DNA of 64,000 bases from assembly GCF_024298885.1 (NCBI RefSeq), contig NZ_CP101167.1, positions 1 to 64,000 of the forward strand, in the 5' to 3' direction. Below the pieces are notes generated by a model. The model was not told the origin of the DNA. It was given only the letters and a program-made list of their open reading frames with translations, and made no database searches. Position 1 is the first letter of the stretch; the number at the start of each line of letters is the position of its first letter. This DNA comes from Haloglomus halophilum. GTDB lineage: Archaea; Halobacteriota; Halobacteria; Halobacteriales; Haloarculaceae. Positions 20,578 to 63,722 of the stretch are shown piece by piece. Position numbers and translations under genes: made by a program.

Positions 20578-20609
20578 GCGCCTCCGCCCCTCGGCGGGCG
20601 CTGATAGAC
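20578..20609 (-). promoter_or_regulatory. Leader hairpin element 1
   Basis: Read on the minus strand: box GTCTATCA, then stem GCGCC/GGCGC enclosing a GC-rich loop with GAGGGGCGG. It lies 20 bp before the ATG of the SWIM gene and 1 bp after the inverted repeat. Confidence 0.6.
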
Positions 20610-20651
20610 TTAACCAACAAATAGCGATCAGTCGTATCCTCTGTTGGTTAA
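20610..20651. repeat. TTAACCAACA inverted repeat, copy 2
   Basis: TTAACCAACA at 20610-20619 and TGTTGGTTAA at 20642-20651, arm starts 32 bp apart, between the divergent SWIM gene and the HTH/nucleotidyltransferase pair. Confidence 0.8.
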
Positions 20652-20782
20652 CCCTTCTCTGCTCGAATGCTGAGCCGGATCGGACTACCGGAGCCAAGAA
20701 TTGTATATCTGTATAGAGATAACTCCATAGGAAATACGAGGGACAAGACTAATACCGCTAGATGCGATACCGATAACTAACG

Positions 20783-21457
20783 ATGATGGAGTACGTCGAC
20801 GAGACCGCGGCGAAGATCATGGTCGCGGCCCGGCCGGGTGACTCGATCCGGCGAATCGCCCAGAAGATCGACGGCTCCTACTCGTGGGTCTACGACTGGA
20901 TCGAGCGGTTAGAGGACGCAGGCTTCATCCGGCGTGAAGACGGCGTCTACATCGAGAAGTACGTTGTCAGGGATCGCTACTACGACCTCGTCGCGGCCAT
21001 TTCTCGCGCTGTCCCCCCCTCGATCGACGACGGCTACGTCATTCCACACTTCGCCGGGATGCCCTTTGCGTACACGAAAATCGATGGCGTCTACGTCTGG
21101 ACCCACGGCGGCTATCAGATCGCTCGCGGCCACGACGATTATCCGATCTTCATCCAGGTCGCCGACCGGGATATCGAACGGTGGACGGCGTTCTTTGATG
21201 AGTTCGGGATTCCGAGCCGGATCGAAGAGCGGCCGGACGCGACCGACTACGATGCGACTGTCTCGTACGTGTTGTTCCCGACGAGTGGGGAGATCACTCG
21301 CGAGTGGGTTGACGGCAATCCGGTTATTCCGTTGGATGAGGCAATCGAGCACATGTTGGAGTACCGGGTGAACTACGAACCGGCGTTGGAGATGATCGCC
21401 GACGAGTACGACCGCGATATCGACGCGTCCCACGAGGATCCGCGTTTGAACGCATGA
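20783..21457 (+). CDS. HTH protein paired with nucleotidyltransferase
   Basis: 224 residues: an N-terminal winged helix (DSIRRIAQKIDGSYSWVYDWIERLEDAGF) and a longer domain with the motifs VIPHFAGMPFAYTKIDGVYVWTHGGYQIA and VIPLDEAIEHMLEY. It overlaps the next gene by the four bases ATGA, so the two are translationally coupled. The arrangement, regulator first and nucleotidyltransferase second, resembles AbiEi/AbiEii toxin-antitoxin systems, which makes this a likely antitoxin and repressor. An orphan paralogue with the same central motif lies at 31221-31880. Confidence 0.75.
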   Translation: MMEYVDETAAKIMVAARPGDSIRRIAQKIDGSYSWVYDWIERLEDAGFIRREDGVYIEKYVVRDRYYDLVAAISRAVPPSIDDGYVIPHFAGMPFAYTKIDGVYVWTHGGYQIARGHDDYPIFIQVADRDIERWTAFFDEFGIPSRIEERPDATDYDATVSYVLFPTSGEITREWVDGNPVIPLDEAIEHMLEYRVNYEPALEMIADEYDRDIDASHEDPRLNA

Positions 21458-22149
21458 GTCTCGGTGAACGCGAAGACGAGCTGCTGGACACCCTGGAGGC
21501 TGTCATTGACGCTGACCTGCCGTACGTGCTCGTCGGTGGGTGGGCGATCGCGGCGTTCAATCAACGCTTCACCACGGACGTCGACGTCGTCATTCCGGCA
21601 CAAGCGGTTGACGACTACACCGACCTTCTCACCGACCGCGGCTACGAGAAAACGGCCGATGTCGAGCGAAGCGAGCTCTACGAGGGCCGTACTATCCGGT
21701 TTACGAAAGATATCGGGAATCCGGTTCGGTTCGACGCGATGGTCGACGCACTTGGCTGTCGCCAGACGGAAGCTGAATGGTCGTATCGCTATCTGGCCCA
21801 GCACTCTGTCACCCAAGAACTGCGAACCGGCCGCCCGGTAACAGCCAGGATTCCGGAACGGGAACTGCTGTTCGCGGTGAAACTTCACAGTGGGCGCAAG
21901 GCAGACTCCCGGGATCTGGTAGTGCTGGCTGCTGGCGCGGATTTCGACCGGATCGCGACTCATCTGCATCGCGGAGAGTCCGAGAAGCTCGCTGGTCGCA
22001 TCGAGACTGTCCTCAACCGCCTCACGTCGGAGGATTTCGCAGATGCATTCAAAGGAGTCTTCGAACAGCAAACGGTTCCCGAACAGGATATCGATGCCGT
22101 CGTTGAGTTCCTTCGTGACCAGCAGCGCCGAATCGATTCTGAACGATAA
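21454..22149 (+). CDS. AbiEii-like nucleotidyltransferase (toxin candidate)
   Basis: 231-residue protein with a nucleotidyltransferase-fold active site: the VLVGGWAIAAF glycine helix followed by TTDVDVVIP, giving the paired aspartates, and FDAMVDAL as the third acidic strand. AbiEii-type enzymes modify nucleic acids such as tRNA and act as toxins in abortive infection. It overlaps the upstream HTH gene by ATGA. Defence or plasmid maintenance is inferred from the family and the coupled layout; substrate unknown. Confidence 0.75.
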   Translation: MSLGEREDELLDTLEAVIDADLPYVLVGGWAIAAFNQRFTTDVDVVIPAQAVDDYTDLLTDRGYEKTADVERSELYEGRTIRFTKDIGNPVRFDAMVDALGCRQTEAEWSYRYLAQHSVTQELRTGRPVTARIPERELLFAVKLHSGRKADSRDLVVLAAGADFDRIATHLHRGESEKLAGRIETVLNRLTSEDFADAFKGVFEQQTVPEQDIDAVVEFLRDQQRRIDSER

Positions 22150-22212
22150 TATCGACCGTCAGTCGTATGTCTCGGGACCGATCGAAACACACGGGGTCGG
22201 ACGCCGGCCGAA

Positions 22213-22253
22213 TTAACCAACAGTGTGGACAAAGCATCCCCGGCGTTGGTTAA
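22213..22253. repeat. TTAACCAACA inverted repeat, copy 3
   Basis: TTAACCAACA at 22213-22222 and CGTTGGTTAA at 22244-22253 (one mismatch), arm starts 31 bp apart, between convergent genes and 18 bp from the stop of the ArdC-like gene. Confidence 0.75.
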
Positions 22254-22271
22254 CAGCCGGAGAAGGCGTGT

Positions 22272-23201
22272 TCAGCCTTCGGAGATCGTCCCGATGATCT
22301 CCTGAGCGGTCGAACTGATTCGACCGAGACGCTCCTGAATGCTCTCCGCATCGTCGTCCTGCCACGCGGCAAGATAGAACGCTGACCCGCTCGTATCCAG
22401 GTTGAAATACCGCCCGACGATGTACGCAACGGCTTCCGCTTCGACCTCGCGTTTTGCGCGCTCGGGCTCGTCGTCGCCATCGAAATGAAGCAGCGCGTGG
22501 GCGTACTCGTGAACCAATGTCACCGCGAGATCGGCCTGATTTGAGCGGGCTTTCGCTTCGACGACTGGCTGGCCCTCGTGGAGAGTCCGGTGTTTGCAGA
22601 CGCCTTCCGCGTCGCCATGCTCCCACTCAGCAGCGTCGACGACACGGACGTCTATATCGAGCGTAGCTGCCGCATCAAGGAGTGCTGGCACCAGGTCGTC
22701 AGCGTTACCAGTGGCCTCGGTTTCCAGCTCGGGGAGCGGTTCGCCCTCGGTTTGAGACACATCGAAGACTGCCGTTGGTTTGAATCCAACCAGTCCTTCG
22801 GACCACTCCTCGGCCGGTGTCTCGTCATAGTCACAGTCGCTTTGCTCGTGGTAGCTCGGTGAGTTCTCGCACTCAGGGCACTGCTTCGTGATGATCGGTG
22901 CCCAGATCCAGATCGCCTGTTCGCCCTCTTGGACGTGCCGGTCGAACTCCGACCGCCACGTATTGTAGCCCGCTACGCGGGTTGCCTCGGGACACTGGAG
23001 CTTGATCAAGAGGGTGTTGCGATGGGAGTAGTCGTGGAACCGGGACTGGACATCGAGCCACTCCTGGAACTGTTGGCTGGCTTTTGCCTCGTCGACGTCT
23101 GCGACGAGCTCGTCGATCCAGTCTTCGATGGTACTGTGCATCTCGTCGTGTCGGGTGTCGGTCTCCTCGAACGAGATACCCGACTCACTGGCTGTCATCA
23201 T
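22272..23201 (-). CDS. ArdC-like antirestriction protein with zincin domain
   Basis: About 309 residues. The first half matches the ArdC ssDNA-binding region (FQEWLDVQSRFHDYSHRNTL, VAGYNTWRSEFDRHVQEGE, IWIWAPI) with an inserted CxxC zinc pair. The second half has the metallopeptidase motif HEYAH followed by an E-x-EA-x-AY helix (REVEAEAVAYIVGRYF). ArdC proteins protect incoming plasmid DNA from restriction. The start is uncertain among several clustered ATG/GTG codons (23198-23213); 23201 is chosen. It carries a leader hairpin. Confidence 0.8.
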   Translation of the reverse strand: MMTASESGISFEETDTRHDEMHSTIEDWIDELVADVDEAKASQQFQEWLDVQSRFHDYSHRNTLLIKLQCPEATRVAGYNTWRSEFDRHVQEGEQAIWIWAPIITKQCPECENSPSYHEQSDCDYDETPAEEWSEGLVGFKPTAVFDVSQTEGEPLPELETEATGNADDLVPALLDAAATLDIDVRVVDAAEWEHGDAEGVCKHRTLHEGQPVVEAKARSNQADLAVTLVHEYAHALLHFDGDDEPERAKREVEAEAVAYIVGRYFNLDTSGSAFYLAAWQDDDAESIQERLGRISSTAQEIIGTISEG

Positions 23202-23247
23202 GGATTGCATCACATCGAGTACGACGACGTCTCCGAGAAGTCAGGAC

Positions 23248-23278
23248 GCGCCGCGCCCCTCGGGGGCGCACGATAAAC
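23248..23278 (-). promoter_or_regulatory. Leader hairpin element 2
   Basis: Minus strand: box GTTTATCG, then GCGCCCC-CGA-GGGGCGC, with a second GGCGC that could pair with the first arm instead. Upstream of the ArdC-like gene. Confidence 0.6.
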
Positions 23279-23361
23279 ATCGGCGCGACTTCGGGGGGTT
23301 TAGATTGGGGCTGCTATCGGAGGCTAGGATTAACAACCAGTGCGACACAAGCACAGGGAGG

Positions 23362-23517
23362 ATGGGTCTCGTCGAAACGCTCCGCGGGGTCGTTGGGACT
23401 CGTATGTCCACGATCTCCACCCTGTATGAGTGCCGACACTGCGGAACGACCCTTTCCGAAGACGCTGAAACGTGTCCGACCTGTGGTGGAGAAGACGTTG
23501 CATGCTACCGGTTCTAA
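23362..23517 (+). CDS. Small zinc-ribbon protein
   Basis: 51 residues: a short amphipathic start (MGLVETLRGVVG), then a compact zinc ribbon with two CxxC pairs (ECRHCGTTL and CPTCGGEDV). Tiny proteins of this type are widespread in haloarchaea and probably bind zinc and a protein or nucleic acid partner. The ATG at 23362 fits their usual start; 23404 is an internal alternative. It stands alone on the plus strand. Confidence 0.65.
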   Translation: MGLVETLRGVVGTRMSTISTLYECRHCGTTLSEDAETCPTCGGEDVACYRF

Positions 23518-23612
23518 GTACACGTCCTCCTATCTGGACAAGTTGCGGTCAGCCCCGTTTCTGTTCGAGATAGTGCCCGGTCAAACACCCCGTAGTGTGA
23601 ATGGGGGACCGG

Positions 23613-23960
23613 TTATCGAAGCGCTGCCTTTTCGTCAGCGAACCCGATCGTGACGAGATATTCGAGGAACGTATCGAACTGGTTGACATCGCTGGGTGTG
23701 TCCGTCGCGAGGTGTCGCACCCACTCGATGGCCCACTGGAACGCGGGATCGGTCCCGCCCTTGCCATGTATATACCACCAGCGAGCGGCCTTCAGGACGA
23801 CGAGCGGATTCGTCGGTGGTTGCTCGCTTGCGAGTCCACGAGTGATCGACCGGATTTCCTCGGGTACTTCAGCGGGGTCGACCTCGCCTGATTGGGTGTT
23901 CGATACGTCGACTGGAATGTCGTCGATCGAGAAGTTGTTCGGACGCTGTTGTTGACTCAC
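23613..23960 (-). CDS. Uncharacterised haloarchaeal plasmid protein
   Basis: 115 residues, acidic, with a disordered N-terminus of about 45 residues and a helical rest containing LKAARWWYIHGKGGTDPAFQ. No motif recognised. The GTG at 23960 is chosen because a leader hairpin lies about 35 bp upstream; it is in the same orientation as its neighbours and part of the same regulon. Confidence 0.6.
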   Translation of the reverse strand: MSQQQRPNNFSIDDIPVDVSNTQSGEVDPAEVPEEIRSITRGLASEQPPTNPLVVLKAARWWYIHGKGGTDPAFQWAIEWVRHLATDTPSDVNQFDTFLEYLVTIGFADEKAALR

Positions 23961-23995
23961 GGAAAATCACCTTCTCGGAGGACTCTTTGGATCGA

Positions 23996-24024
23996 GCCCT
24001 CGCCCCCTCCGGGGCGCGAAAAAC
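23996..24024 (-). promoter_or_regulatory. Leader hairpin element 3
   Basis: Minus strand: box GTTTTTCG, then GCGCCCC-GGAG-GGGGCG followed by AGGGC, so the first arm has two possible partners. Precedes the 115-residue protein gene. Confidence 0.6.
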
Positions 24025-24035
24025 CACTCGTAGCG

Positions 24036-25037
24036 TCACGCCGGTGGAATGTACACGCTCTGCTCGCCGGCGATCTCCTCCAGGTTGTTCCGATGGCGAT
24101 GTGAGAAGTAGCACTCGTAGCTGCAGTAGCCACAGAGCACGCCGGTATCATACTCAGCGATGAAGGGACCGCACCGAGTCGTCCAGACGTTCGCTTCGCA
24201 TTCGGTACACACAGCACTATCGAGATCGGTTGGTGACGGGCCCTCGTACTCGATTTCGAGGATGTCGTTATGTGGTGTCGAGTCGGGCCACACACCGTGA
24301 GACTGCCAGAAGGCCTTGATCCGGGCAAGACTGTGTCGGACTGTCTTCCGAACTGTGACGTGGGAGGCGTCACGTCCGCTATCATCCCACCCGTCAGCTG
24401 TCCAGAACTCCCCGAACTGTGCGCCGCGATGGAGTCCGTTCCAATCGAGGCCGACGATGTCGGTCGGTGGCTCGCCTGTGAGTGTCGGTCGGGTCAGCTG
24501 CTGGATGACGTCCCACTGTTTCGGTGGACTGCCACCGAGGATATGCACACGGCGGCCACGCCAGTCGGTCGGCTCGGAGAACTCATGCGCCAATCGGTCG
24601 GCATACCCCCGCGAGTAGCCGACCACGAGGTCGTTCGGGATCGTGTCGATCACCTCGCGGCACTTTGGGACGATGACGAGTTCTGCGTCGGGATAACTCG
24701 CCTGAATCTTGCGGGCAGCGGCCACGTACTTGTCGACGTCGTCTCTCTCGTACGCATCTCCGATCACGCCAACCGTGGGTTCGTATTCGAAAAATCGGGC
24801 GACGTACCGATCCAGATCGGGATTCCGAAAGTCGTTATCCAACATTCCAACGGGGATGTTCAGGTCCTGATACTGGGCCTGCTGATATCCGCAGTCCTCT
24901 CGGAACCCAGGTAGGTAGCCGAGCCTGTAGGCATCCAGAGCGAACGGCGCTCGATGAAGGAACGCCACGCTGTCGGCTTGTCTGGCAGCGGAAATCTCGC
25001 GTTCAGTGCTGCTGCTGGGGCTGATATCGAGCGACAT
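24036..25037 (-). CDS. DUF6610-like protein, possible TGT-like barrel
   Basis: 333 residues. The N-terminal 230 residues have alternating strands and helices with AELVIVPKCREVIDTIP, RRVHILGGSPPKQWDVIQQL and TDIVGLDWNGLHRGAQFG. This recalls the tRNA-guanine transglycosylase (TGT/DpdA) barrel, where a hydrophobic strand plus GG and a later D-containing strand bind the base. The C-terminal 80 residues carry four CxxC-type cysteines and a histidine-rich stretch (CSYECYFSHRHR), probably a zinc site. The TGT link is my reading of the motifs and is weak; the family name is likely but unverified. Confidence 0.6.
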   Translation of the reverse strand: MSLDISPSSSTEREISAARQADSVAFLHRAPFALDAYRLGYLPGFREDCGYQQAQYQDLNIPVGMLDNDFRNPDLDRYVARFFEYEPTVGVIGDAYERDDVDKYVAAARKIQASYPDAELVIVPKCREVIDTIPNDLVVGYSRGYADRLAHEFSEPTDWRGRRVHILGGSPPKQWDVIQQLTRPTLTGEPPTDIVGLDWNGLHRGAQFGEFWTADGWDDSGRDASHVTVRKTVRHSLARIKAFWQSHGVWPDSTPHNDILEIEYEGPSPTDLDSAVCTECEANVWTTRCGPFIAEYDTGVLCGYCSYECYFSHRHRNNLEEIAGEQSVYIPPA

Positions 25038-25066
25038 GAATGTGCCCTGCGAGGGCGAATCCGGCC

Positions 25067-25096
25067 GCCCTGCACCCTCTCAGAGGGGCAATAAAC
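25067..25096 (-). promoter_or_regulatory. Leader hairpin element 4
   Basis: Minus strand: box GTTTATTG, then GCCC...GGGC enclosing CTCTGAGAGGGTGCA. The AGGGTGC loop core matches the consensus. It lies 29 bp before the ATG of the DUF6610-like gene. Confidence 0.65.
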
Positions 25097-25113
25097 GGAG
25101 TCGCAGTCCACCA

Positions 25114-25153
25114 TTAACCAACATTAAACCCCAGACCGCACTTTGTTGGTTAA
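25114..25153. repeat. TTAACCAACA inverted repeat, copy 4
   Basis: TTAACCAACA at 25114-25123 and TGTTGGTTAA at 25144-25153, arm starts 30 bp apart, between two tandem minus-strand genes and 17 bp from leader element 4. Confidence 0.8.
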
Positions 25154-25193
25154 TTATCTGGACGGCTCCGATACCTGCCAAGGATTTTCCAAC

Positions 25194-25730: not shown

Positions 25731-25882
25731 AATTCACGGGGACTCCTCTCGTCTGTGTCTTCCCCCGCTGTTCGCTCGTGCCGGTCATTGTGTCGCTCGA
25801 GTTCTCGGACGATGCACTCCAACGCCTTGGCGGCGCGTTCGATGAGTTGATACGTGGCCCGCGAGAGTCGGATTCTCTCCAT
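25727..25882 (-). CDS. 51-residue helical protein, translationally coupled
   Basis: A small gene whose ATG overlaps the stop of the gene before it and whose TGA overlaps the start of the gene after it, both as ATGA. It is predicted to be one long amphipathic helix (MERIRLSRATYQLIERAAKA...VRELERHND) with a charged tail. The double overlap is good evidence that it is translated. Possibly a small DNA-binding or partner protein; not recognised. Confidence 0.7.
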   Translation of the reverse strand: MERIRLSRATYQLIERAAKALECIVRELERHNDRHERTAGEDTDERSPREL

Positions 25883-26577
25883 CAGGTCTCCTCCTCTGGC
25901 TTGACGAGGTCGTTACTCTCAGCGACGAGTGCCTGAACGGCTGAAGCAGGGTCGTTCTCGACCGGAAGTGTTCGATGGTCAAGCGGGGCGGGATACGCTC
26001 GGTCCCCCTGCGCACAAAGTATGATCAACCACTCTTCGCTCCCTTCGGCGAGGACGACGTAGTGGTCGATATCCCGACGTTGGAAGACTGTCCGATCTGT
26101 CCGGCTCACCGCACTCCAGTTCGCCGGCAGTGACGATGACGGCGTCCCACCATCTGGCGTGAGTGCTCGGGACTCTTCGAATTCGGCGAGTTCCGCCTCG
26201 ATATCCTCTCCGGTGAGGTGCCAGCAGTCGGCCGGGCCATCACACACCAACTGACTGACCACGTCGTCGCGGAACTGGATGTAGTGTTTCTCGGCGACGG
26301 TTTCGTCGTCGGTATAATCGAGGAGGAGCGCACAGGCGAGCTGTGCCGGTCTGCTTCCCGTATAGCCCCAGTCGAATCCCGCCGGGCTACGCCGCACGAG
26401 ACCGAGACTTCGATTTGGGGAGAGGCGTTCGTGTGCGGTGAGGTTCAGGACCACTGGCGTTCCATCGACACGCATTCCGACGTACTCAACGCAGTCTGCA
26501 CTCGCCTGCCATCGCTCACTCGCATCCTGTACGACTGCTCGTGGGTCGGTAGTCGAGTTCATCTCCATCGGTTGCAT
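25882..26577 (-). CDS. DUF6166-domain protein
   Basis: 231 residues. The N-terminal 130 residues match the DUF6166 type (VRRSPAGFDWGYTGSRPAQLACALLLDYTDD, then VVSQL...DCWHLTGEDIEAEL). A shorter paralogue of the same domain lies at 32219-32623. The C-terminal 100 residues are extra. It is the first gene of the operon with the 51-residue and zinc-finger genes, and its leader hairpin lies 15 bp before the start. Function unknown. Confidence 0.7.
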   Translation of the reverse strand: MQPMEMNSTTDPRAVVQDASERWQASADCVEYVGMRVDGTPVVLNLTAHERLSPNRSLGLVRRSPAGFDWGYTGSRPAQLACALLLDYTDDETVAEKHYIQFRDDVVSQLVCDGPADCWHLTGEDIEAELAEFEESRALTPDGGTPSSSLPANWSAVSRTDRTVFQRRDIDHYVVLAEGSEEWLIILCAQGDRAYPAPLDHRTLPVENDPASAVQALVAESNDLVKPEEET

Positions 26578-26592
26578 GCGGGCGTTCGGATT

Positions 26593-26621
26593 GCCCGCGC
26601 CCCTGCTGGGGGTCGAAAAAC
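26593..26621 (-). promoter_or_regulatory. Leader hairpin element 5
   Basis: Minus strand: box GTTTTTCG, then CGACCCCC-AGCA-GGGGCG followed by CGGGC. Upstream of the DUF6166 operon. Confidence 0.6.
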
Positions 26622-30909: not shown

Positions 30910-31134
30910 CTATTGCACGTCCTGTGCGCGGATTTCGCTGGCCCGATCTTTGAGCTGGCGAAGAATCTGGACGCGCTGCTGGTTCGCGTTCTCGTAGGCG
31001 ACGCAGGCTCGGAGCGTCTCCATGTCGTGAATCGTCGCGATACCAGCATTGATGAGTCGGGTGTTTGGCGGTTCAAGACGCTGTTCCGGTGTGAGACCGT
31101 CTGATTCGACGGATGAATTCAACGAATCGCTCAT
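30910..31134 (-). CDS. Small helical plasmid protein
   Basis: 74 residues, mostly helical (ETLRACVAYENANQQRVQILRQLKDRASEIRAQ). The ATG at 31134 is preferred over an upstream one because a leader hairpin ends only 6 bp before it. The gene lies last on the minus strand before the foreign STAND segment. Function unknown; several small proteins of this kind occur in haloarchaeal plasmid operons. Confidence 0.6.
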   Translation of the reverse strand: MSDSLNSSVESDGLTPEQRLEPPNTRLINAGIATIHDMETLRACVAYENANQQRVQILRQLKDRASEIRAQDVQ

Positions 31135-31140: not shown

Positions 31141-31171
31141 TCGCCTCCGCTCTCTCAAGGCGACAACAAAC
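31141..31171 (-). promoter_or_regulatory. Leader hairpin element 6
   Basis: Minus strand: box GTTTGTTG, then stem TCGCCT/AGGCGA with loop TGAGAGAGCGG. The stem sequence differs from the others but pairs perfectly. Confidence 0.65.
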
Positions 31172-32218: not shown

Positions 32219-32623
32219 TTAGTTGACGGACGGTGCGACTGGATCGTCGACTATCTCACGAAGGGCTGCATCTATCTCGCGTCCGGTGAGTCGCCAGCAG
32301 CCGTCAGGGCCTGTACACTCTAGCTGGCTCACCACTTCGGTCTTGAACGCCTTGTACTCCGCAAGCGCTACCTCCTCATCGTCGGTGTAATCGAGCAGGA
32401 GGGCGAGTGCGAGTTGGGCCGGCCCGCTGCCACCATATCCCCATTCGAAGCCCGAAGGACTGTGATTCGCCAGCTTGAGACTCCGCTCTGGCGTGAGCTG
32501 TTCTTGGTCCGATTGCTTCTCGACGATGGCGCGGCCTCGACGACGGTAACCGACGTAGATGACGTCGGGATCTGCCGAAGTCCGTGACTGTACGTGTGAG
32601 CGTGGGTCGCTGATTCCACTCAT
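32219..32623 (-). CDS. DUF6166-domain protein, short paralogue
   Basis: 134 residues, aligning with the N-terminal part of the protein at 25882-26577: SPSGFEWGYGGSGPAQLALALLLDYTDD and VVSQLECTGPDGCWRLTGREI. It ends where the domain ends. A leader hairpin lies 30 bp before the ATG. Two paralogues with the same leader and different partners suggest duplication of the leader-plus-gene unit. Function unknown. Confidence 0.72.
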   Translation of the reverse strand: MSGISDPRSHVQSRTSADPDVIYVGYRRRGRAIVEKQSDQEQLTPERSLKLANHSPSGFEWGYGGSGPAQLALALLLDYTDDEEVALAEYKAFKTEVVSQLECTGPDGCWRLTGREIDAALREIVDDPVAPSVN

Positions 32624-32652
32624 AGGTTGGTTCGCGGGAGGCTCGTTCGATC

Positions 32653-32683
32653 ACCCCCGCACCCCTCTCGGGGGTTCAAAAAC
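32653..32683 (-). promoter_or_regulatory. Leader hairpin element 7
   Basis: Minus strand: box GTTTTTGA, then stem ACCCCC/GGGGGT around GAGAGGGGTGC. A shorter CCCC-GAGA-GGGG hairpin is the alternative fold. Confidence 0.7.
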
Positions 32684-50784: not shown

Positions 50785-50787
50785 TGT

Positions 50788-51279
50788 TCAGAAGTGGACG
50801 TCAGCGGGCACGATCCAGAGCTCTTCACTCTCCTCGAGGAGTCGATCCAACTGTCCACGGTGGCGAATGCCGGTTCCGTGTTCGGTGTACAGGAAGATCG
50901 TTGGGCCGTCGTACGCACCGACCTGGTGGAAGGCGTGCCGCGCGAGGTCCTCGTCGCGCATGATCTCCTCGTCGGAGAACTCGTCGATGGCTTCCTTCAC
51001 CCGCTCGAGATTACGCTCGAATTCCGCCTTCGTCGCCTCCCAGCCACGCTCGAGGAGATCCCGGCCGTCGTCGGAGTCGACGGGGGCTGCAGTCGGGAGC
51101 TCTCCCCACCGCGCTTTGCCCGCAACGGACGTATCCTCCTCATCGAAACAGACGTAGTAGTCGAAGACGGCGCCGGCGTGTGGGTCCGCGCCGACCAAGC
51201 GGTCGAACACCGTCTTTCCGGTGGCCAGTGCGTCGTCGTGCGTCGATGCCTCTACGAGGGCGTAAATCACCATGTGCAT
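50788..51279 (-). CDS. Uncharacterised protein (DUF7995-like)
   Basis: About 164 residues, acidic, opening MHMVIYALVEASTHDDALATGKTVFDRLVG. It has a helical middle (EATKAEFERNLERVKEAIDEF) and ends LWIVPADVHF. ATG at 51279 or 51273 is the start; the earlier codon at 51306 adds an unlike N-terminus. Leader element 8 lies upstream. It forms an operon with the zinc-ribbon gene 3 bases downstream. Seen on other haloarchaeal plasmids; function unknown. Confidence 0.62.
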   Translation of the reverse strand: MHMVIYALVEASTHDDALATGKTVFDRLVGADPHAGAVFDYYVCFDEEDTSVAGKARWGELPTAAPVDSDDGRDLLERGWEATKAEFERNLERVKEAIDEFSDEEIMRDEDLARHAFHQVGAYDGPTIFLYTEHGTGIRHRGQLDRLLEESEELWIVPADVHF

Positions 51280-51330
51280 CTCGAACACCTCGAAACGCCG
51301 ACGCACCGGGTGTCGTTGCTCGCTCCAGAT

Positions 51331-51362
51331 GCGCCGGCACCCATCGCCGGCGCTCGAAAAAC
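51331..51362 (-). promoter_or_regulatory. Leader hairpin element 8
   Basis: Minus strand: box GTTTTTCG, then stem GCGCCGGC/GCCGGCGC with the 7-nt loop GATGGGT. The longest perfect stem of the family. Confidence 0.75.
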
Positions 51363-51384: not shown

Positions 51385-51801
51385 TCAGGACTCGTCCGCT
51401 CGTTCGACAGTGATGGTCAGATCGCCCGATTCGTAGTCGGCCTCGAAATCGACGGCGAACGCGTCCGAGTTGTGGGCTGCGTGGTAGGCGCGGTGGAGTT
51501 CGAGCGAGCCAGTCGCCTTGAAGTGGAAGAATGCGGCCGCCGTGTAGGGCTTGCTCTGTGTTTCGACCTGCGACTCGACGGATGCGGGAAGCGCGATCTG
51601 GGGCGTCTCCGTATCGATACTCGCAGCGAACTCCTTCGCTTCCTCGACGGTTGTTTGCGAATGTGCCGGTGTCTCGCCGGTGATCACGTTCACCGGAGTT
51701 TCTGTCTCGTCGGTGAATAGGACGTCTTCGAAGGTGTGTGTTCCGAGGATCGCTTCGGGATCCAACTCGCAGTCGTGAAACGGATCGTCGTCTGAGGTCA
51801 T
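51385..51801 (-). CDS. Uncharacterised acidic protein
   Basis: 138 residues, strongly acidic, with a C-terminal alpha/beta half (PYTAAAFFHFKATGSLELHRAYHAAHNSDAFAVDFEADY). No motif recognised. Leader element 9 lies 19 bp before the ATG, so it is expressed as part of the leader group. The next gene downstream on the strand starts after leader element 8. Confidence 0.6.
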   Translation of the reverse strand: MTSDDDPFHDCELDPEAILGTHTFEDVLFTDETETPVNVITGETPAHSQTTVEEAKEFAASIDTETPQIALPASVESQVETQSKPYTAAAFFHFKATGSLELHRAYHAAHNSDAFAVDFEADYESGDLTITVERADES

Positions 51802-51820
51802 CGAATCACGAGCCTATGAC

Positions 51821-51850
51821 GGGGCTCACCCATTCCGGCCCCTGAAAAAC
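51821..51850 (-). promoter_or_regulatory. Leader hairpin element 9
   Basis: Minus strand: box GTTTTTCA, then stem GGGGC/GCCCC with loop CGGAATGGGTGA. The stem bases are reversed relative to other copies yet still pair. Confidence 0.75.
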
Positions 51851-54784: not shown

Positions 54785-55447
54785 TTAGAAGTGATTCAGG
54801 CTCGCCTTCTCGAAGGGTGATTCACCGCTCGGGATGCGCAACTCCTGCCGCTTCCCGACCCACTTGCCGAGCTTCTGCTTGAGGTACTGGCGAGCCGTCG
54901 ACTGGGTAAACACACCCTTGTCGACCATATCGCCGACGACGTCTTTCAGTGCCCGGAACAGCCCCTTCAGATGGCCGTCGCCGACCGGCTCGCCGTCGTA
55001 CCAGCGCACCGTCGCGAGCGCCCCGTTCCCGACCGTCTCGCCGTGGTCGATTGTCTCCGAATCGTACTGCAGGCCGAGCCACAGCGTCCGGTAGGCGGTC
55101 ACCTCGAAGGTCGGCGACACCACGTAAAACGCCTCGTGGTGGAGGTAGTCGAGATGGTCCGCGACGATCTCGTCGAGGGTGAGCCCGGTGGCGCGGGGCT
55201 TCGGCTCGACGACTGTCGACGGTCGGTTCTCGTCGGCGAGGTAGCCGTCGACCGCATCTGCCTCGAGGCCATCGGCAAGCTCTGCGAGGAGCTGTTTCGC
55301 CCACTTGGAGTCGGTGTCGTCACCACCGAACGGCGACTCAGCCGAGATTCGGTGCTTGAGCTTCAGGTTCGCTGCGCCCCAATGGCTGTAGTGGAGCGTG
55401 TACTGTCCGTCCGTGCGTTCGTACGCAACGAGTGCGCGGTGTCCCAT
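54785..55447 (-). CDS. DUF6735-family plasmid protein
   Basis: 220 residues opening MGHRALVAYERTDGQYTLHYSHWGAANL, the usual start of a haloarchaeal family found on plasmids and in viruses. Later segments TLDEIVADHLDYLHHEAFYVVSP and LGKWVGKRQELRIPSGESPF are typical. Leader element 10 lies about 36 bp upstream. Function unknown; strong gene call. Confidence 0.78.
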   Translation of the reverse strand: MGHRALVAYERTDGQYTLHYSHWGAANLKLKHRISAESPFGGDDTDSKWAKQLLAELADGLEADAVDGYLADENRPSTVVEPKPRATGLTLDEIVADHLDYLHHEAFYVVSPTFEVTAYRTLWLGLQYDSETIDHGETVGNGALATVRWYDGEPVGDGHLKGLFRALKDVVGDMVDKGVFTQSTARQYLKQKLGKWVGKRQELRIPSGESPFEKASLNHF

Positions 55448-55483
55448 CGAGCAATCACCTCACGGGGCGACCGCGACTGGATC

Positions 55484-55513
55484 GCCCCGCACCCCTCCCG
55501 GGGGACGAACAAC
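55484..55513 (-). promoter_or_regulatory. Leader hairpin element 10
   Basis: Minus strand: box GTTGTTCG, then CCCC...GGGG around a loop with GAGGGGTGC. Two alternative G tracts can pair with the C tract. Confidence 0.65.
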
Positions 55514-55947: not shown

Positions 55948-55953
55948 AGTGGG

Positions 55954-57805: not shown

Positions 57806-58186
57806 CTACTCGTCGATCGGGTCGGGGGAACTGAGGTCCGCGTGGAGGACTTCGCCGTCGCGAACGACGTACCGCTTCGCCAGGACTGGGAAGCGGCACT
57901 TGGTGAACCCCGCCGTCTGGATATCGAACTCCTCGTCAGCTTCGAGGTGGTCGGCGAGTTCTTGCAGGAATTCGTGAGTCACGATCCCGCCCTCGTAGTC
58001 CGGCAGGCCGTTCTCCCGCGCCTCGTACACCTCGAAGTCGTCGTACCCCCAGATGGTGAGTTCGCCCTCGTCGGTCACCTCCCAGTCGAGCGTCCCGAAG
58101 CAGTAGCTCTCACAGAGCTCGCGGACTGCCTGTGGATCCGATACGATCGCGTCGGTCGACGTCGTCGCAGCTTGCAGTGTAGCCAT
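57806..58186 (-). CDS. Uncharacterised acidic plasmid protein
   Basis: 126 residues, acidic, beta-rich with LDWEVTDEGELTIWGYDDFEVYEARENGL and a C-terminal FPVLAKRYVVRDGEVLHADL. No motif. Leader element 11 begins 18 bp before the ATG. Member of the leader group; function unknown. Confidence 0.62.
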   Translation of the reverse strand: MATLQAATTSTDAIVSDPQAVRELCESYCFGTLDWEVTDEGELTIWGYDDFEVYEARENGLPDYEGGIVTHEFLQELADHLEADEEFDIQTAGFTKCRFPVLAKRYVVRDGEVLHADLSSPDPIDE

Positions 58187-58204
58187 GTCTGGAGTTCACG
58201 GGGT

Positions 58205-58234
58205 CGCCCCCGCACCCCTATCGGGGCGATAAAC
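58205..58234 (-). promoter_or_regulatory. Leader hairpin element 11
   Basis: Minus strand: box GTTTATCG, then stem CGCCCC/GGGGCG around GATAGGGGTGCG. The inner CCCC-GATA-GGGG fold competes. Confidence 0.75.
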
Positions 58235-58276: not shown

Positions 58277-58465
58277 TTAGGAGTCTGCGTGGACGTCCGA
58301 CCCGGCTCCGTCGCCCGGCCGCGTGAAAAGACTCACCTCTTCCAGGAGGTCTCTCGCGGTCTCGACTCGCTCTCGATCCGCGTCGTCCAATCGGTCGATG
58401 TCGAGTCGGTTGAGATTGCTGAGTATACGATGCATCCGGTAGCCCTGTTTGAACTCTTGCTCCAT
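58277..58465 (-). CDS. Small helical protein
   Basis: 62 residues (MEQEFKQGYRMHRILSNLNRLDIDRLDDADRERVETARDLLEEV), mostly one or two helices. ATG at 58465 is chosen because leader element 12 ends 5 bp before it; an upstream ATG at 58507 lies inside the leader. Not recognised; similar small helical proteins occur beside other leader genes. Confidence 0.6.
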   Translation of the reverse strand: MEQEFKQGYRMHRILSNLNRLDIDRLDDADRERVETARDLLEEVSLFTRPGDGAGSDVHADS

Positions 58466-58470
58466 CGGAA

Positions 58471-58500
58471 GCGCCTCACCGCTCGCCGGCGCGGAAAGAC
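58471..58500 (-). promoter_or_regulatory. Leader hairpin element 12
   Basis: Minus strand: box GTCTTTCC, then stem GCGCC/GGCGC with loop GGCGAGCGGTGA, ending 5 bp before the ATG at 58465. Confidence 0.65.
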
Positions 58501-58542
58501 GCCCCATCGAGGTTGGCGTCGGGCTTGCAGGAGCTCGCGGAC

Positions 58543-58584
58543 GTAACCAACGAACCTCGACGCTACTCGCAGGGTGTTGGTTAA
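58543..58584. repeat. TTAACCAACA inverted repeat, copy 5
   Basis: GTAACCAACG at 58543-58552 (two mismatches) and TGTTGGTTAA at 58575-58584, arm starts 32 bp apart, 19 bp from the stop of the zinc-ribbon gene. Confidence 0.7.
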
Positions 58585-58603
58585 TCGACGCCCAGCACTG
58601 GCG

Positions 58604-59497: not shown

Positions 59498-59621
59498 ACC
59501 TTCTGTCGGTATCGCATTTCAACGTCCGGACGCCTTCGCCTGCAAGGCACTCTTGATTATGCGAGACGGTACAAACATATATGGGAGTAGGGCGCGAACA
59601 CTGTCCCAAGAGGTGCCAACC

Positions 59622-60173: not shown

Positions 60174-60190
60174 CCCTCCTCTCTCACAGA

Positions 60191-60679
60191 ATGATCTTTC
60201 TTGCCGGTCGCGACCGCTATACACAGCGGACCCTCCTCCGCGACGTTCACGACCGATTGACGAACCAGCCAGGGTGTGAAGAGGTCCGCTATCGCCCGTC
60301 TCGACGCCGACCCCGGTACGTCATCGCGGATGTCGATCCGACGACGTTCCTGAGTGACTCGTACGATGCGGCGACAGCACGACTGGAGATTCGCTTCTGG
60401 TACCCCGCCGGCGTCGACCACGAATACTACCGCATAAACTGGGTCGAACCGGACCGAAATCTGATGCTCGGATTCCACCAGGACGCCGACCATCCGGACC
60501 TTGGGCTCTGTCACATCCAACTCAATTACGAAGACACGCCGGTTGATCGGCACAAGGCGACGTTTCTCGATGCGCACCCACTCGCCGTCCTCGATGACCG
60601 ACTACAGCAGTTCCCGCCCGCGCTAGATGCGATCCACTGGAAGAATGGAGCGCCCTCGCTCCCTACCTGGCCCGTCTAG
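60191..60679 (+). CDS. Partner of the DUF7342-like protein
   Basis: 162 residues, beta-rich, opening MIFLAGRDRYTQRTLLRDVHDRL, with the conserved-looking RLEIRFWYPAGVDHEYYRINWVEPDRNLMLGFHQD and DLGLCHIQLNY. No catalytic triad visible. The pair with a DUF7342-like winged-helix protein recurs in haloarchaea and may be a toxin-antitoxin or regulatory module; this is inferred from pairing only. Confidence 0.65.
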   Translation: MIFLAGRDRYTQRTLLRDVHDRLTNQPGCEEVRYRPSRRRPRYVIADVDPTTFLSDSYDAATARLEIRFWYPAGVDHEYYRINWVEPDRNLMLGFHQDADHPDLGLCHIQLNYEDTPVDRHKATFLDAHPLAVLDDRLQQFPPALDAIHWKNGAPSLPTWPV

Positions 60680-60855
60680 ACAGCGAGTTCATCGAGCGTC
60701 TGGTGATGCGTCCGTGTCGTGGTCGGCGTGACGTTTCCGGACTCGGCGATGTCACGGTGCGCTACCCACTACCCCTGTTCCCGCCCCGATTTGTGGAGGT
60801 AAGCCGCTGCGAACCCTGCCAAATGAACGCCCGCCGTGACTGCCGTCGGAATTGA
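60676..60855 (-). pseudogene. Fragment of a TFB gene
   Basis: A minus-strand frame of about 60 codons matches the last cyclin repeat of TFB: VTAGVHLAGFAAAYLHKSGREQG, an in-frame TAG, then WVAHRDIAESGNVTPTTTRTH and a stop overlapping the stop of the plus-strand neighbour. The functional copy at 62671-63657 has GVHPAGFAAACLYTAGQ and WVTQGEAAAVASVTATTIRNH at the same place. The fragment begins about 15 bp from the inverted repeat at 60870. Confidence 0.75.
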
Positions 60856-60869
60856 GGGTACTCACCGTA

Positions 60870-60910
60870 TTAACCAACAGAAGCCATCTCTGTCGGAGAC
60901 TGTTGGTTAA
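60870..60910. repeat. TTAACCAACA inverted repeat, copy 6
   Basis: TTAACCAACA at 60870-60879 and TGTTGGTTAA at 60901-60910, arm starts 31 bp apart, 20 bp from the stop of the damaged zinc-ribbon gene and about 15 bp from the tfb remnant. Confidence 0.8.
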
Positions 60911-60930
60911 TCGGCGAGATTCCTCCTGCC

Positions 60931-61801
60931 CTATTCGGGAGCAGGTCCGTAGCGACCTGTGCCACACACCTGGCACTCCCAGATTGGTTGGCCTGTCCAG
61001 GTCTCGTCAGAGAGCGACTCACGTGTCCTGAACCGATGTTCTGTTTCTCTCGTACAGTGCTGGCACTCCAGGGCTGTCACGGTCGGGATTTCAGCTCCGG
61101 TACTGGTGGATTCGGTTTTGCGGGGAACTGTTTCAACAGCGATTGCTGGGACGATCCACAGCTGATCGCTGTCGTCGAGCGTGTGCTCGAGGGACGACTC
61201 ATCACGAATTCCCTGGCCTCGCTCGTCATAGACGCGTGGAATCTCCTTCTGAGGGCGATTGTTCCTCTCGTTCCACGCTGTCCGCTCACGGGTCGCTGTT
61301 AGCAACGCCTCACCGGCCGCTGAGGTCACCTCGGCGGCCGCGGGGAGCGTAGGCCAGCGTTCGGTTAGCTGGGGTGCGGGCTCGTCGTCGAGAGCGTAGA
61401 TGAGCGTACAGTCGTCGATCGGTTCGTCGTGACCTGACGTAAGAAGTGTCGCTGCAGCTGCCCCTTTCGCGACAGCACCATAGAACGTCCCGGATTCGAC
61501 GAGGAAGTGGATCACACCACGGAGTGATTGCTCGGAACTCGCAGCATCCGACGCTGAGGCGGCGTCGAGTTCGTGTTCGAGACAGAACCGGCATTTTCCG
61601 TTGCGACGCCGGTATGGATGCGCCACAGGAGACACAGGCTCGGTCTGTGTCGGCCGTTCTATCCGGATACCCACCCGAATGCGCGGCTTCACGCTGGCGG
61701 GTTGGCTGGCCGTCCGCGGGCTGATCCAGCGCTGGGTCCGGCACCAGAGCGCCTTCCCCGACAGGTTGGAACGCGTCTCGGTCTGAGTTGCGGTCAGTCA
61801 T
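60931..61801 (-). pseudogene. Double zinc-ribbon protein, frameshifted copy
   Basis: Paralogue of the protein at 58604-59497, frame-broken near 61594-61597. The N-terminal frame ends at CVSCGASIPASQRK, and the next frame continues CRFCLEHELD. One extra A in a run of four (three in the intact copy) splits the first zinc motif. The rest aligns to the end (CQHCTRETEHRF, CQVCGTGRYG). It may be a recent mutation or a programmed event; the former is more likely. Confidence 0.8.
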
Positions 61802-61956
61802 CGATTCGCTCCGCGTTTCCCCCGGTTTGGTACTTGAGTCTCCGGACGCTGTCCACACAGCTCCCCGAGCGGTACGCTACTGAGACAGATGCCGAGCGGG
61901 ACTCAGTCTGGGGGATTGAAGAACGAGCGATCGCCGTAATACCGCCGGCTGCCGTC

Positions 61957-62094
61957 CTATTCGGTGGCGAGTTCCTCGTAGATCTCCGCGTGCTCGTCGA
62001 GGTCTTGGCGACCGAGGAACCGGATGAGATACTGCCGCGCCTCCTCGGCGGACAGCTCATCGGGAATCTCGGGCGGCTCGCTTTCAGCGGCCAT
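61957..62094 (-). CDS. 45-residue protein coupled to Doc (antitoxin candidate)
   Basis: A small gene beginning 2 bases after the stop of the Doc toxin gene: 45 residues, acidic and helical (EIPDELSAEEARQYLIRFLGRQDLDEHAEIYEEL). It is too short to be noticed easily but has coding codon use and no stop. Phd-type antitoxins normally precede doc; here the partner follows it. It could neutralise Doc, and would be an unusual antitoxin if it does. Confidence 0.6.
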   Translation of the reverse strand: MAAESEPPEIPDELSAEEARQYLIRFLGRQDLDEHAEIYEELATE

Positions 62095-62096
62095 GC

Positions 62097-62642
62097 TTAC
62101 TCCTCATTACGGGGGTCGTGGTCATAATCGTTCGGTTCGTGGGATTCCTGCTCGCCGGTGTCGCGGTCCGTTGGGAGCTGCTCCGTCCCGTCGATACGGG
62201 CCAGCCACAGATTGATGGTCGCCTCGTATTCCGGTGCCAGCGGCTCTGTGTGCGCCCGCAGATACGCGAGCACATCGTCCACATCGACACTGGACTCGTC
62301 TGTCGCGAGTGCCTTCAGAATCTCTTTGATCTCCCGATCGTAGTCGAAGCGCAGCCCATTCAGCGCGTAGAAAATCCGGGTCGACATGAGTGCTGTTCGC
62401 TTGTTGCCATCGACAAACGGATGATTGGCCGCAATGAGCCGGAGCAGCTGGAAGGCCTTCTCGTGGAGCGACTCGGGGCCCTGACCGAACTGGCCTTCCT
62501 GAACGTGTTCCACGGCGTATTCGATATCGCCTGGCGAGGCCACCCCGGCGGTAGTCTCTGCATTTGCCTCCACGATCAACGCGTGAATGGCCTGGATGTC
62601 GTCGGCCGACAGGTAGCTGATCGACTCCGAGTCCTCGCCCAT
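62097..62642 (-). CDS. Doc/Fic-family toxin
   Basis: 181 residues with the Fic/Doc motif HPFVDGNKRTA in the middle. The Lys and Thr in place of the second Arg match Doc, which phosphorylates EF-Tu (elongation factor) rather than adding AMP. Helical segments around it (LSADDIQAIHALIVE and LRLIAANH) fit the family. A C-terminal acidic, polar tail of 30 residues is extra. The gene is followed by a 45-residue protein; no Phd gene is visible upstream. Plasmid addiction is the likely role. Confidence 0.82.
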   Translation of the reverse strand: MGEDSESISYLSADDIQAIHALIVEANAETTAGVASPGDIEYAVEHVQEGQFGQGPESLHEKAFQLLRLIAANHPFVDGNKRTALMSTRIFYALNGLRFDYDREIKEILKALATDESSVDVDDVLAYLRAHTEPLAPEYEATINLWLARIDGTEQLPTDRDTGEQESHEPNDYDHDPRNEE

Positions 62643-62670
62643 TGTCGATATCCTCTACGACAACGCGTAT

Positions 62671-63657
62671 CTATCTACTGTTTTGTGGAGCGCACTCGCG
62701 GGCCACCGCGGTGGCAAGATCTCCGCGCTGTCCGATGTCGAGCTCCTGCAGCACGTCGCGGTGGTTCCGTATCGTCGTTGCCGTAACGCTCGCCACGGCC
62801 GCGGCCTCGCCCTGTGTTACCCATCGCCCTGCTTCCTGGCCGGCCGTGTAGAGACAGGCCGCAGCGAAGCCGGCGGGATGGACGCCGGTCGTCACGCCGG
62901 CATCCTCGGCCGCTTCGGCAAGTGTTCGCGCTCGACGTCGGATCCGCTCCGGACAGTCGAGGTCAGATGCGAGCCGCGGAATGTACATCGTCGGTGTCGC
63001 GGGTTTGGCTGGGAGACCTAGCTCCTCGTTGAGTGTCTTGTAGGCGTTCGTGACCCGTGATTCCCCGACCGTCGCGACTGCCACGATGTCGTCGAGGAGC
63101 TGCGACCGGCCGTTGCATCGGCCGGTACCGTAGATGCTCGCTGCACCGATGGCTTCGATGGATCTGCCACGAAGCAGATCCTCGCTCTGAGCCCTCCGGA
63201 AGAGCTGGCACGCCTGGTCACGAATCGACTCGGAGAGTTCGAGCGCACTCGCCAGCCGGCGCACCTCGCCCAACCCGTGTGCGAGATTCCGTTCCGCTTT
63301 GGACCGCCAGCGACCACGGGTCTGCTCACGCCGCATCCGAGCGAGCCGCCGTCGCTTCTGTCCTGAGAGTTCATTCCCGTGAGCATCGGTTCTGTGACCG
63401 ATCTCCGTCGAGAGGCCTCGATCGTGGCGGGCCGCCGTTAACGGTGCGCCTGTTCGCTCGCGCTCGTCTGCATCGTACGCTCGCCATTCTGGCCCGTGGT
63501 CGATCCGCTGCTCGTTGATGACCAGGCCACAGTCCTCGCAGATGGTTTCGACTGCGTTGGTGGTGACCCGCCCGTCGCACTCGGGACACAGGTTAGCGCT
63601 CGACTCCGTCTGGGCGTCCTCATCGAAGTCAGTTTCGTAGATGTCTCTGATTGCCAT
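62671..63657 (-). CDS. TFB-family transcription initiation factor (paralogue)
   Basis: 328 residues. The zinc ribbon near the N-terminus is CPECDGRVTTNAVETICEDCG, the B-finger region ends at ERTGAPLTAARHDRGLSTEIG, and two cyclin repeats follow (about 130-230 and 235-328). Haloarchaea encode several TFBs that steer RNA polymerase to different promoter sets. The ATG at 63657 is chosen over 63708 because leader element 13 lies just upstream. A fragment of another tfb copy lies at 60676-60855. Its leader puts this gene inside the group it may control. Confidence 0.9.
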   Translation of the reverse strand: MAIRDIYETDFDEDAQTESSANLCPECDGRVTTNAVETICEDCGLVINEQRIDHGPEWRAYDADERERTGAPLTAARHDRGLSTEIGHRTDAHGNELSGQKRRRLARMRREQTRGRWRSKAERNLAHGLGEVRRLASALELSESIRDQACQLFRRAQSEDLLRGRSIEAIGAASIYGTGRCNGRSQLLDDIVAVATVGESRVTNAYKTLNEELGLPAKPATPTMYIPRLASDLDCPERIRRRARTLAEAAEDAGVTTGVHPAGFAAACLYTAGQEAGRWVTQGEAAAVASVTATTIRNHRDVLQELDIGQRGDLATAVARECAPQNSR

Positions 63658-63696
63658 GGTTCTCACCGTGTTCAGGGAACCCGCCAGTACGGCGAG

Positions 63697-63722
63697 CCCC
63701 TCACCCATTGAGGGGACAATAG
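63697..63722 (-). promoter_or_regulatory. Leader hairpin element 13
   Basis: Minus strand: box CTATTGTC, then stem CCCCTC/GAGGGG with loop AATGGGT, upstream of the tfb gene. The box is a weaker match than in other copies. Confidence 0.65.

Follow-up and report, generated by a model that had tools for sequence, protein, structure and literature searches.

The window analysed here, bases 1–64,000 of the 126,082-bp contig C2 (NZ_CP101167.1) of Haloglomus halophilum (genome of 4.45 Mb in three contigs), carries a short repeated element in front of scattered genes. In 5′-to-3′ order along the gene strand, a copy consists of a GTTTNTY(G) box, a few bases, an arm a, a loop that ends with GGGTG or a close variant, and an arm a′. 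Arm a pairs with a′ in hairpin A, and a′ can pair with a downstream arm b in hairpin B; by its position A would be transcribed before B. Relatives of C2 within the plasmid collection are haloarchaeal. Our favoured reading, to which we assign a probability of about 0.55, is that the element acts in cis as a two-fold leader RNA common to many genes of haloarchaeal conjugation-type plasmids, forming a translation switch with a trans factor. Box and hairpin are present at all 13 coordinates at which a sequence-only reading of the window had placed them, every one on the minus strand, together with the GGGTG-type loop core that it had described.

The shuffle p values given with the copies below concern hairpin B. 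Element 1 (20565–20609; box 20603–20609, a 20597–20601, a′ 20578–20582, extended to 20585 for B, b 20565–20573) precedes the gene at 19737–20558, whose SWIM zinc finger match is below the Pfam cut-off (B free energy (dG) −12.5, p 0.013). Element 2 (23220–23278; box 23272–23278, a 23265–23270, a′ 23247–23252, b 23220–23235; p 0.033) stands before an ArdC-N plus IrrE-like gene at 22272–23213. The product of this gene is a candidate ArdC-like anti-restriction protein (minus strand; Pfam ArdcN 1.9e-5, above cut-off; Peptidase_M78 1.7e-4, 0.1 bit under cut-off), and its close relatives are annotated as ArdC-like and single-stranded DNA (ssDNA)-binding. Element 3 (23977–24024; box 24018–24024, a 24012–24018, a′ 23993–23999, b 23977–23986; p 0.107) has an imperfect arm a that shares the last base of the box and, after b, the Shine–Dalgarno (SD)-like site AGGTGATT; its gene (23613–23960) begins with GTG. 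Element 4 (25047–25096; box 25090–25096, a 25082–25089, a′ 25064–25071, b 25047–25059; p 0.167) precedes a DUF6610 gene at 24036–25037. In element 5 (26577–26621; box 26615–26621, a 26608–26612, a′ 26594–26598, b 26577–26584; p 0.233), arm b overlaps the first ATG of a DUF6166 gene (25882–26577) by one base, and the real start may be a later in-frame ATG. Element 6 (31141–31171; box 31165–31171, a 31158–31163, a′ 31141–31146), with the lowest score (19.7), is followed after 6 nt by the ATG of the gene at 30910–31134, which leaves no room for B. Element 7 (32632–32683; box 32677–32683, a 32669–32675, a′ 32653–32659, b 32632–32643; p 0.277) precedes a second DUF6166 gene (32219–32623).

Six further copies lie toward the far end of the window. 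Element 8 (51295–51362; box 51356–51362, a 51346–51353, a′ 51331–51338, b 51295–51308, then SD-like GAGGTG) leads the family M gene at 50788–51279 (ATG 51279), with a B dG of −22.7 and 0 of 300 shuffles as low. Element 9 (51808–51850; box 51844–51850, a 51838–51842, a′ 51821–51825, b 51808–51815; p 0.083) precedes the gene at 51385–51801. Element 10 (55461–55513; box 55507–55513, a 55502–55507, a′ 55483–55488, b 55461–55473, then SD-like GAGGTGATT) belongs to a DUF6735 gene of family K at 54785–55447 (B dG −23.2, p 0.003). Element 11 (58190–58234; box 58228–58234, a 58223–58228, a′ 58205–58210; p 0.30) has only a weak b (58190–58200) ahead of the gene at 57806–58186. In element 12 (58471–58500; box 58494–58500, a 58488–58492, a′ 58471–58475) the ATG at 58465 comes 5 nt after a′, again without room for B. 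Element 13 (63667–63724; box 63718–63724, a 63709–63715, a′ 63697–63703, b 63667–63684, then SD-like GGTGAG) precedes a family S gene for a relative of transcription factor B (TFB) at 62671–63657 (minus, ATG 63657); its p of 0.39 was computed with the start at 63660, 3 nt too early. The TFB product matches Pfam TFIIB (2e-31) and NCBIfam PRK00423.1 (5e-77, 259 bits, under the 384-bit cut-off), both on 62671–63660. The remaining target genes of the window are without a Pfam match. Directly after the TFB gene lies a gene for a Fic/DOC-family protein (62097–62642, minus).

Matches were found with a scorer for box plus hairpin (stems of 4–8 bp only) whose cut-off was calibrated with the opposite strand; it replaced a first loose regular-expression scan, dropped as too noisy at 829 plus-strand and 355 minus-strand matches. 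The 13 copies score 19.7–29.6. Other window matches scoring at least 17 number four on the minus strand (17.2–19.3) and five on the plus strand (17.3–19.7), and by score alone the weakest copy (31171, 19.7) equals the best chance match. In a search of the window with a covariance model built from the same 13 copies, these rank 1–13, the last four at E 0.02–0.08 and the next match at E 0.13. Rfam gave no match at gathering score in the window, in line with the view that no named riboswitch or motif fits.

Some details of the first description had to be adjusted. All 13 copies hold, and the series goes on past the window on the minus strand, with copies at C2:75795 and C2:76515, a probable further one at C2:67324 (minus, score 19.4) and six weaker candidates on C3, a second plasmid. 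The distance of 5–60 bp before the start becomes 5–51 nt from the end of a′ to the start codon with our own start assignments for the 13 copies (box to start, 35–83 nt). Competition of two G tracts for the same C tract occurs in CCCC-type copies only; the general pattern is the reverse, a single G-rich 3′ arm a′ having two partners, one upstream and one downstream. The element spans about 30–80 nt, and in the pooled profile the sequence common to dissimilar leaders is limited to about 30 nt. The counts listed for box letter against loop type display no visible pattern.

The compensatory change claimed for the stem was borne out, with covariation above that of shuffled controls in two stem sets and in a swap test free of stem selection. 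MAFFT alignment of the raw copies put the stem in the wrong place, so copies were N-padded manually to fit the assumed stem, a choice that favours this stem in the following figures. Among the 13 copies, 88.5% of stem cells are paired compared to 72.3% in shuffled sets, with a covariation score of 0.318 versus 0.079 (0 of 500 shuffles as good); with the two C2 copies and six C3 candidates added (21 rows), these values become 93.3% versus 68.3% and 0.507 versus 0.118 (0 of 500).

For the unbiased test, matches were picked by box and core letters, with no stem required, in 80 related loci centred on a DUF6735 gene (the best 80 of 102 confirmed), and dissimilar leaders were kept. On the gene strand, a × a′ gave −6.80 kcal versus −5.17 kcal swapped in 129 leaders and −8.84 versus −6.56 kcal in 61 leaders taken at stricter cut-offs, and a′ × downstream gave −11.56 versus −10.64 kcal and −11.89 versus −10.85 kcal, respectively; in all four cases 0 of 1,000 swaps were as good. 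Repeated with opposite-strand matches (86 and 20), these tests yielded 891, 631, 924 and 346 of 1,000 swaps as good. Since swaps are beaten on the gene strand and not on the opposite one, both pairings are real on average and specific to the gene strand. A scorer-selected a × a′ figure for 56 leaders (own −12.36, swapped −6.37) was set aside as circular because those matches had been chosen partly by that stem.

The second hairpin, half of the element, is absent from the initial description, as are arm b and the link to conjugation genes. Comparison of orthologous leaders shows a further match of the G-rich a′, to arm b just ahead of an SD-like site or the start codon; A and B are mutually exclusive because both use a′. 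With 83 scorer-selected leaders and dinucleotide shuffles, a′ × downstream has a mean z of −1.01 (standard error of the mean 0.17), compared to −0.02, 0.01 and −0.03 for the controls a′-upstream, a-downstream and a-upstream. In 56 scorer-selected leaders the own downstream stretch gives −11.15 kcal against −9.34 kcal swapped (standard deviation (s.d.) 0.30; 0 of 1,000 swaps as good), with 584 of 1,000 for a × downstream and 79 of 1,000 for a′ × upstream; the scorer and model match sets include some matches inside genes. Arm b also keeps a place relative to the start codon. In 23 of the 25 families that start with ATG and leave space for B, this arm ends 5–18 nt ahead of the start (mode 9), compared to 66% with swapped arms (s.d. 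8, maximum 84% of 200). Of 35 leaders, 9 contain SD-like letters; in the aligned families K, M and S they stand between b and the start, and GAGGTGATT is found ahead of the ATG in most DUF6735 leaders listed. Across families and on the gene strand, sequence comparison thus points to selection on both of two helices that exclude each other by using the same arm.

Which strand folds was read from the non-Watson–Crick pairs. When 56 leaders were scored blind to wobble, G–T pairs numbered 40 versus 26.2 after swapping (s.d. 4.7; maximum 39 of 30 swaps) and A–C pairs 16 versus 19.7 (s.d. 3.5). In the K, M and S stems (rows used: 41 of 44 for M, 27 of 37 for S), non-Watson–Crick cells, which count sequences and not events, comprise 129 G–T and 12 A–C; out of 35 pair positions, these fall on 17 and 6, respectively. 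By stem, G–T to A–C is 70:3 in K_B, 43:0 in M_B, 12:6 in S_B, 2:1 in M_A and 2:2 in S_A. Because G–T exceeds A–C, the coding strand is the one that folds, as RNA would, and RNA is the simplest candidate for the folding molecule.

The wobble asymmetry also fits folded coding-strand ssDNA, and a signal in the transferred strand during conjugation is the corresponding alternative: box and hairpin would be recognised by a plasmid protein such as a primase or SSB, in the manner of an ssi site or an ssDNA promoter. It would account for the co-orientation of the element with transfer genes described below and for an ArdC-like gene among the targets, and C2 encodes candidate partners, namely a 1,475-aa protein with weak TraD/D5-primase resemblance, an NrS-1-type HBD protein and an RPA-like OB-fold protein. 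Plasmid primases may start at GTG or TTTGGTTA motifs. A DNA site would have no obvious reason to keep b in register with the start, with SD-like sites in between, and an Frpo-type site depends on a duplex promoter formed within the hairpin and on transfer of the template strand; here the stem is short and GC-rich, and the wobble pairs point to the coding strand. On balance we consider such a signal rather improbable.

A promoter or operator in double-stranded DNA, with GTTTNTYG as a TATA-like box and the palindrome as a start-site operator recognised by the plasmid's TFB or by a repressor, was weighed on the pooled profiles. Among 169 leaders whose upstream DNA is dissimilar, the box is the sole strong AT-rich block, its letters being demanded by the scorer; this, the box-to-start distance in the window copies and the TFB gene on the plasmid would suit a promoter. 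The plasmid-borne initiation factor that the sequence-only reading had imagined is indeed encoded, and its gene is itself a target of the element. No TATA or B recognition element (BRE) stands at a fixed distance upstream of the box, and in 115 leaders all-AT 6-mers are not in excess between −35 and −21 relative to the box, which weakens the promoter option. A mild AT rise at −27 and −25 (0.55 and 0.58 in the pooled profile) leaves other start positions possible. Among 60 leaders with a gap above 60 nt there is a weak all-AT 6-mer excess at −60 to −51 (about 0.04 versus 0.012), so that starts would fall upstream of the element and put it within the transcript, a location that the wobble asymmetry also favours. 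On NZ_CP095489 the DUF6735 box begins 1 nt past the upstream stop codon, which also speaks against a promoter. A double-stranded site, moreover, would not keep pairing under stem change, favour G–T over A–C or give a′ a second partner, and we regard this explanation as very unlikely.

The further copies that were to be expected if the element is real were found well beyond C2. In the own-genome model scan (150 of 4,260 first-look candidates scored), E ≤ 1 gave 11 matches, ten on C2, one on C3 and none on the chromosome-size contig. Covariance model R2, which includes all six C3 candidates, finds the element at E ≤ 0.01 in 58 of 145 sampled genomes of the class. In a 196-genome sample of the phylum with stricter filters, 18 genomes have an R2 match: the source genome, 16 others within its order and one from beyond it (G288, E 0.006). 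An R2 match at L025:27602-27639 (minus, 25.6 bits) was taken as chance: it has a box-like start and a stem and no GGGTG core, and it lies antisense within the 3′ end of a 'transfer complex protein' gene. In the 80 loci, all 289 model matches at E ≤ 0.1 are on the gene strand, and the independent scorer gives 576 gene-strand and 12 opposite-strand matches at score 20. On three annotated plasmids (NZ_CP101324, NZ_CP095489 and NC_018225), 42 of 45 gene-strand model matches end 1–52 nt before an annotated start by manual count (16 of 19 in an E ≤ 5 set and 26 of 26 in an E ≤ 2 set); the exceptions are two matches within genes and one overlapping a start, and three more matches lie on the other strand.

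The element keeps company with conjugation genes. It occurs together with TrbL_3 in 48 of the 145 genomes (58 with the element, 71 with TrbL_3; Fisher p 1.4e-11). Among the 150 matches listed, 97 lie on a contig with TrbL_3 no more than 100 kb away; of those, 92 are on the TrbL_3 strand, 77 lie downstream of it in its own direction, and 44 of 47 modules are fully co-oriented with it. C2 has a TrbL/VirB6-like gene, and its 1,475-aa protein matches TraD, CedB and D5-type families weakly, all under cut-off. On NZ_CP101324, xseAB, VirB4-like and conjugal-transfer genes are followed on one strand by genes for a DNA-binding protein, TFB, DUF6735, DUF6166, DUF6610 and an ArdC-like protein; NZ_CP095489 and NC_018225 have a similar gene order with parts missing or interrupted. 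The mating-pair type is MPF_T for two of these three plasmids.

Taken together, the element, both pairings, the fold of the coding strand, the start register and the co-occurrence and co-orientation with a conjugation gene are supported by comparison of sequences. Among the options first proposed, an RNA leader or translation switch is the best supported, by compensatory change, many more copies, the wobble asymmetry and the start-codon register. From these we infer RNA rather than coding-strand ssDNA, translation as the controlled step, B as the off and A as the on state, a trans factor and a role in establishment, of which the direction of switching and the trans factor are guesses. In such a leader, hairpin A would be flanked 5′ by the unpaired GUUUNUYG box and carry a loop with GGGUG at its end. 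Hairpin B would fill the ribosome landing zone before the start codon and lower translation, and formation of A would free that zone. A trans factor reading box and loop (GUUUNUYG, GGGUG) could set the balance between the two. A dozen scattered genes, among them those for the ArdC-like protein, TFB, DUF6735, DUF6166 and DUF6610, might in this way be switched together at plasmid entry or maintenance.

Several observations weigh against this leader switch. The effect of B is an average across leaders: the own downstream stretch outranks all others in just 3 of 56 rows (median rank 0.20), within-family pairing is non-significant (S_B 82 of 1,000, S_A 51 of 1,000), and the within-family test is uninformative for K_B and M_B, in which one side is invariant; the case for pairing therefore rests on comparison between families. 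Among the 13 copies in the window, two lack the space for B; of the remaining 11, four reach p ≤ 0.05 when their own short leaders are shuffled. With strong duplexes only, the register is 20 of 22 compared to 67% swapped (s.d. 11, maximum 94%). Forced-fold energies are split, favouring B in 23 and A in 12 of the 35 usable leaders of 56 (15 without a start codon found and 6 without room or helix for B being out), with a mean of 2.7 kcal/mol toward B. Hairpin B leaves SD and start codon uncovered, so repression would be indirect. As to the strand, 41 of the 129 G–T cells come from one fixed pair, and the A stems alone give 11 G–T versus 6 A–C under blind scoring without a control. Some single leaders are AT-rich about 30 nt before the box, from which RNA would start at the box. 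The conjugation link is loosened by 53 of the 150 listed matches without TrbL_3 within 100 kb, and PLSDB types all 70 DUF6735-match plasmids as non-mobilizable.

Part of this list would suit a constitutive RNA feature, in which A and the box serve as a site for protein binding, processing or stability and the complementarity to b is a by-product instead of a switch. Box and loop occur in copies with and without room for B, B is often far more stable than A in the energy model, and the low rank of the own arm b points the same way. Against it, a′ × downstream in dissimilar leaders surpasses the swapped controls as well as the shuffled ones, a result limited to the gene strand, and b has a preferred place before the start codon. 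A constitutive feature is in our estimate unlikely.

A more far-reaching version of the leader switch, which we put forward only tentatively, is a plasmid-wide archaeal post-transcriptional regulon: one two-state switch before most establishment genes of conjugative plasmids would be read by a plasmid-encoded factor through its box and loop, and anti-restriction, TFB and other genes would be translated in a burst after entry and silenced as the factor accumulates. If true, it would be the RNA counterpart of ssDNA promoters and zygotic induction. Control of genes in the new host by archaeal conjugation-type plasmids is little described, as far as our searches reached, and a compact, widespread two-fold leader would offer a handle on such a regulon. 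Uncharacterised genes (DUF6735, DUF6610, DUF6166 and others) would then be recognisable as members from the leader alone, and the element offers a natural archaeal leader switch for study.

In translational riboswitches and protein-controlled leader switches, one arm is common to two alternative hairpins beside the initiation region. The present element differs in having no known ligand or family and in being repeated over many genes of one plasmid; at locus L048, an Rfam search at E ≤ 5 returned a single snoRNA match (18.5 bits, E 2) away from the elements. A riboswitch reported for haloarchaea (PMC8241225, as far as its accessible text goes) is alike in exerting leader RNA control in these organisms and differs in being synthetic, not natural. 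No description of the element was found by title or abstract opening among the literature matches listed, subscription journals lying largely outside that scope. New here are hairpin B and its register with the start codon, together with the evidence on the folding strand and the link to conjugation genes.

Closer in gene content are the pLS20-family plasmids of Bacillus, in which, according to the portion available of PMC8708921, EGeRS1 and EGeRS2 are shared upstream sequences before several establishment genes including ardC, EGeRS1 being a conserved 400–600-bp region with multiple inverted repeats. The likeness lies in a repeated upstream sequence before several genes, the ardC type included; the element described here, by contrast, is archaeal and about 30–80 nt long instead of 400–600 bp, with variable paired stems and a start-codon register. 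For pLS20, ssDNA promoters were considered and judged unlikely, the transferred strand being reported as the non-template one (same portion of PMC8708921). In Frpo-type ssDNA promoters of leading regions, inverted repeats anneal into a functional promoter (PMC8708921 and PMC11541004, in part), and a word search of the accessible text of the latter did not return 'archaea'. Frpo sites are structured and precede co-oriented anti-defence genes of conjugative elements, to which the ArdC-like target and the co-orientation with TrbL_3 may be a parallel, the PLSDB typing as non-mobilizable pointing the other way; they differ from the short GC-rich stem, folded coding strand and second hairpin beside the start codon found here. 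The stems scored (4–8 bp) do not form an archaeal TATA/BRE duplex promoter, and the AT-rich box lies outside them.

Two loci, L056 and L103, have hybrid-looking DUF6735 leaders just upstream of position 10001, with the box side from another element and the downstream side their own; they look as if a gene between two elements had been lost by recombination. They would be expected if the hairpins were points of gene exchange, as in an attC- or repetitive extragenic palindromic (REP)-like cassette site. Integron attC sites have conserved R/L boxes within the stem and are excised by the integrase. Ordinary homologous recombination between repeats can explain both hybrids, the shared letters are in box and loop with the stems variable, and b is in register with start codons; we find a recombination site barely credible.

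On C3 (G000:C3 80586-96076, plus strand) the six candidates are individually weak (model E 0.013–1.2 in 82 kb). Five have a GTTTGT box and four an ACGGT loop, variants that hint at plasmid-specific recognition. A stricter pattern recovers four of the six, plus four other plus-strand and nine minus-strand chance-like matches, and a TrbL_3 search of C3 gave no match. A TrbL_3 match with one internal TAG at G000:C1:2157777-2158874, on the chromosome-size contig, is possibly a remnant of an integrated conjugative element. Adjoining the transfer module of C2, the gene at C2:77723-78997 (L016:13723-14997, minus) encodes an NrS-1 polymerase HBD domain (2.7e-32), possibly part of a plasmid primase, and C2:67489-68355 (L016:3489-4355, minus) encodes a 288-aa protein with a terminal RPA/SSB-like OB fold, its matches being under curated cut-offs.

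A separate plasmid site is the inverted pair TTAACCAAC-N22-25-GTTGGTTAA, with seven exact pairs on C2 (window 17874, 20610, 22213, 25114 and 60870; C2:77616 and C2:91540) and two on C3 (C3:22941 and C3:104856). Composition predicts about four single half-sites per orientation. A literature search with the letters of the pair listed matches that are unrelated by title. In the C2 and C3 pairs the half-sites are 31–33 bp apart, start to start, and the 80 loci contain 104 inverted pairs, 92 of them spaced 32–33 bp; these are not independent because the loci are related. Half-sites fall within 150 nt upstream of an element in 54 of 107 forward and 51 of 110 reverse cases. The pair is probably a double-stranded DNA operator or partition site spanning about three helical turns.

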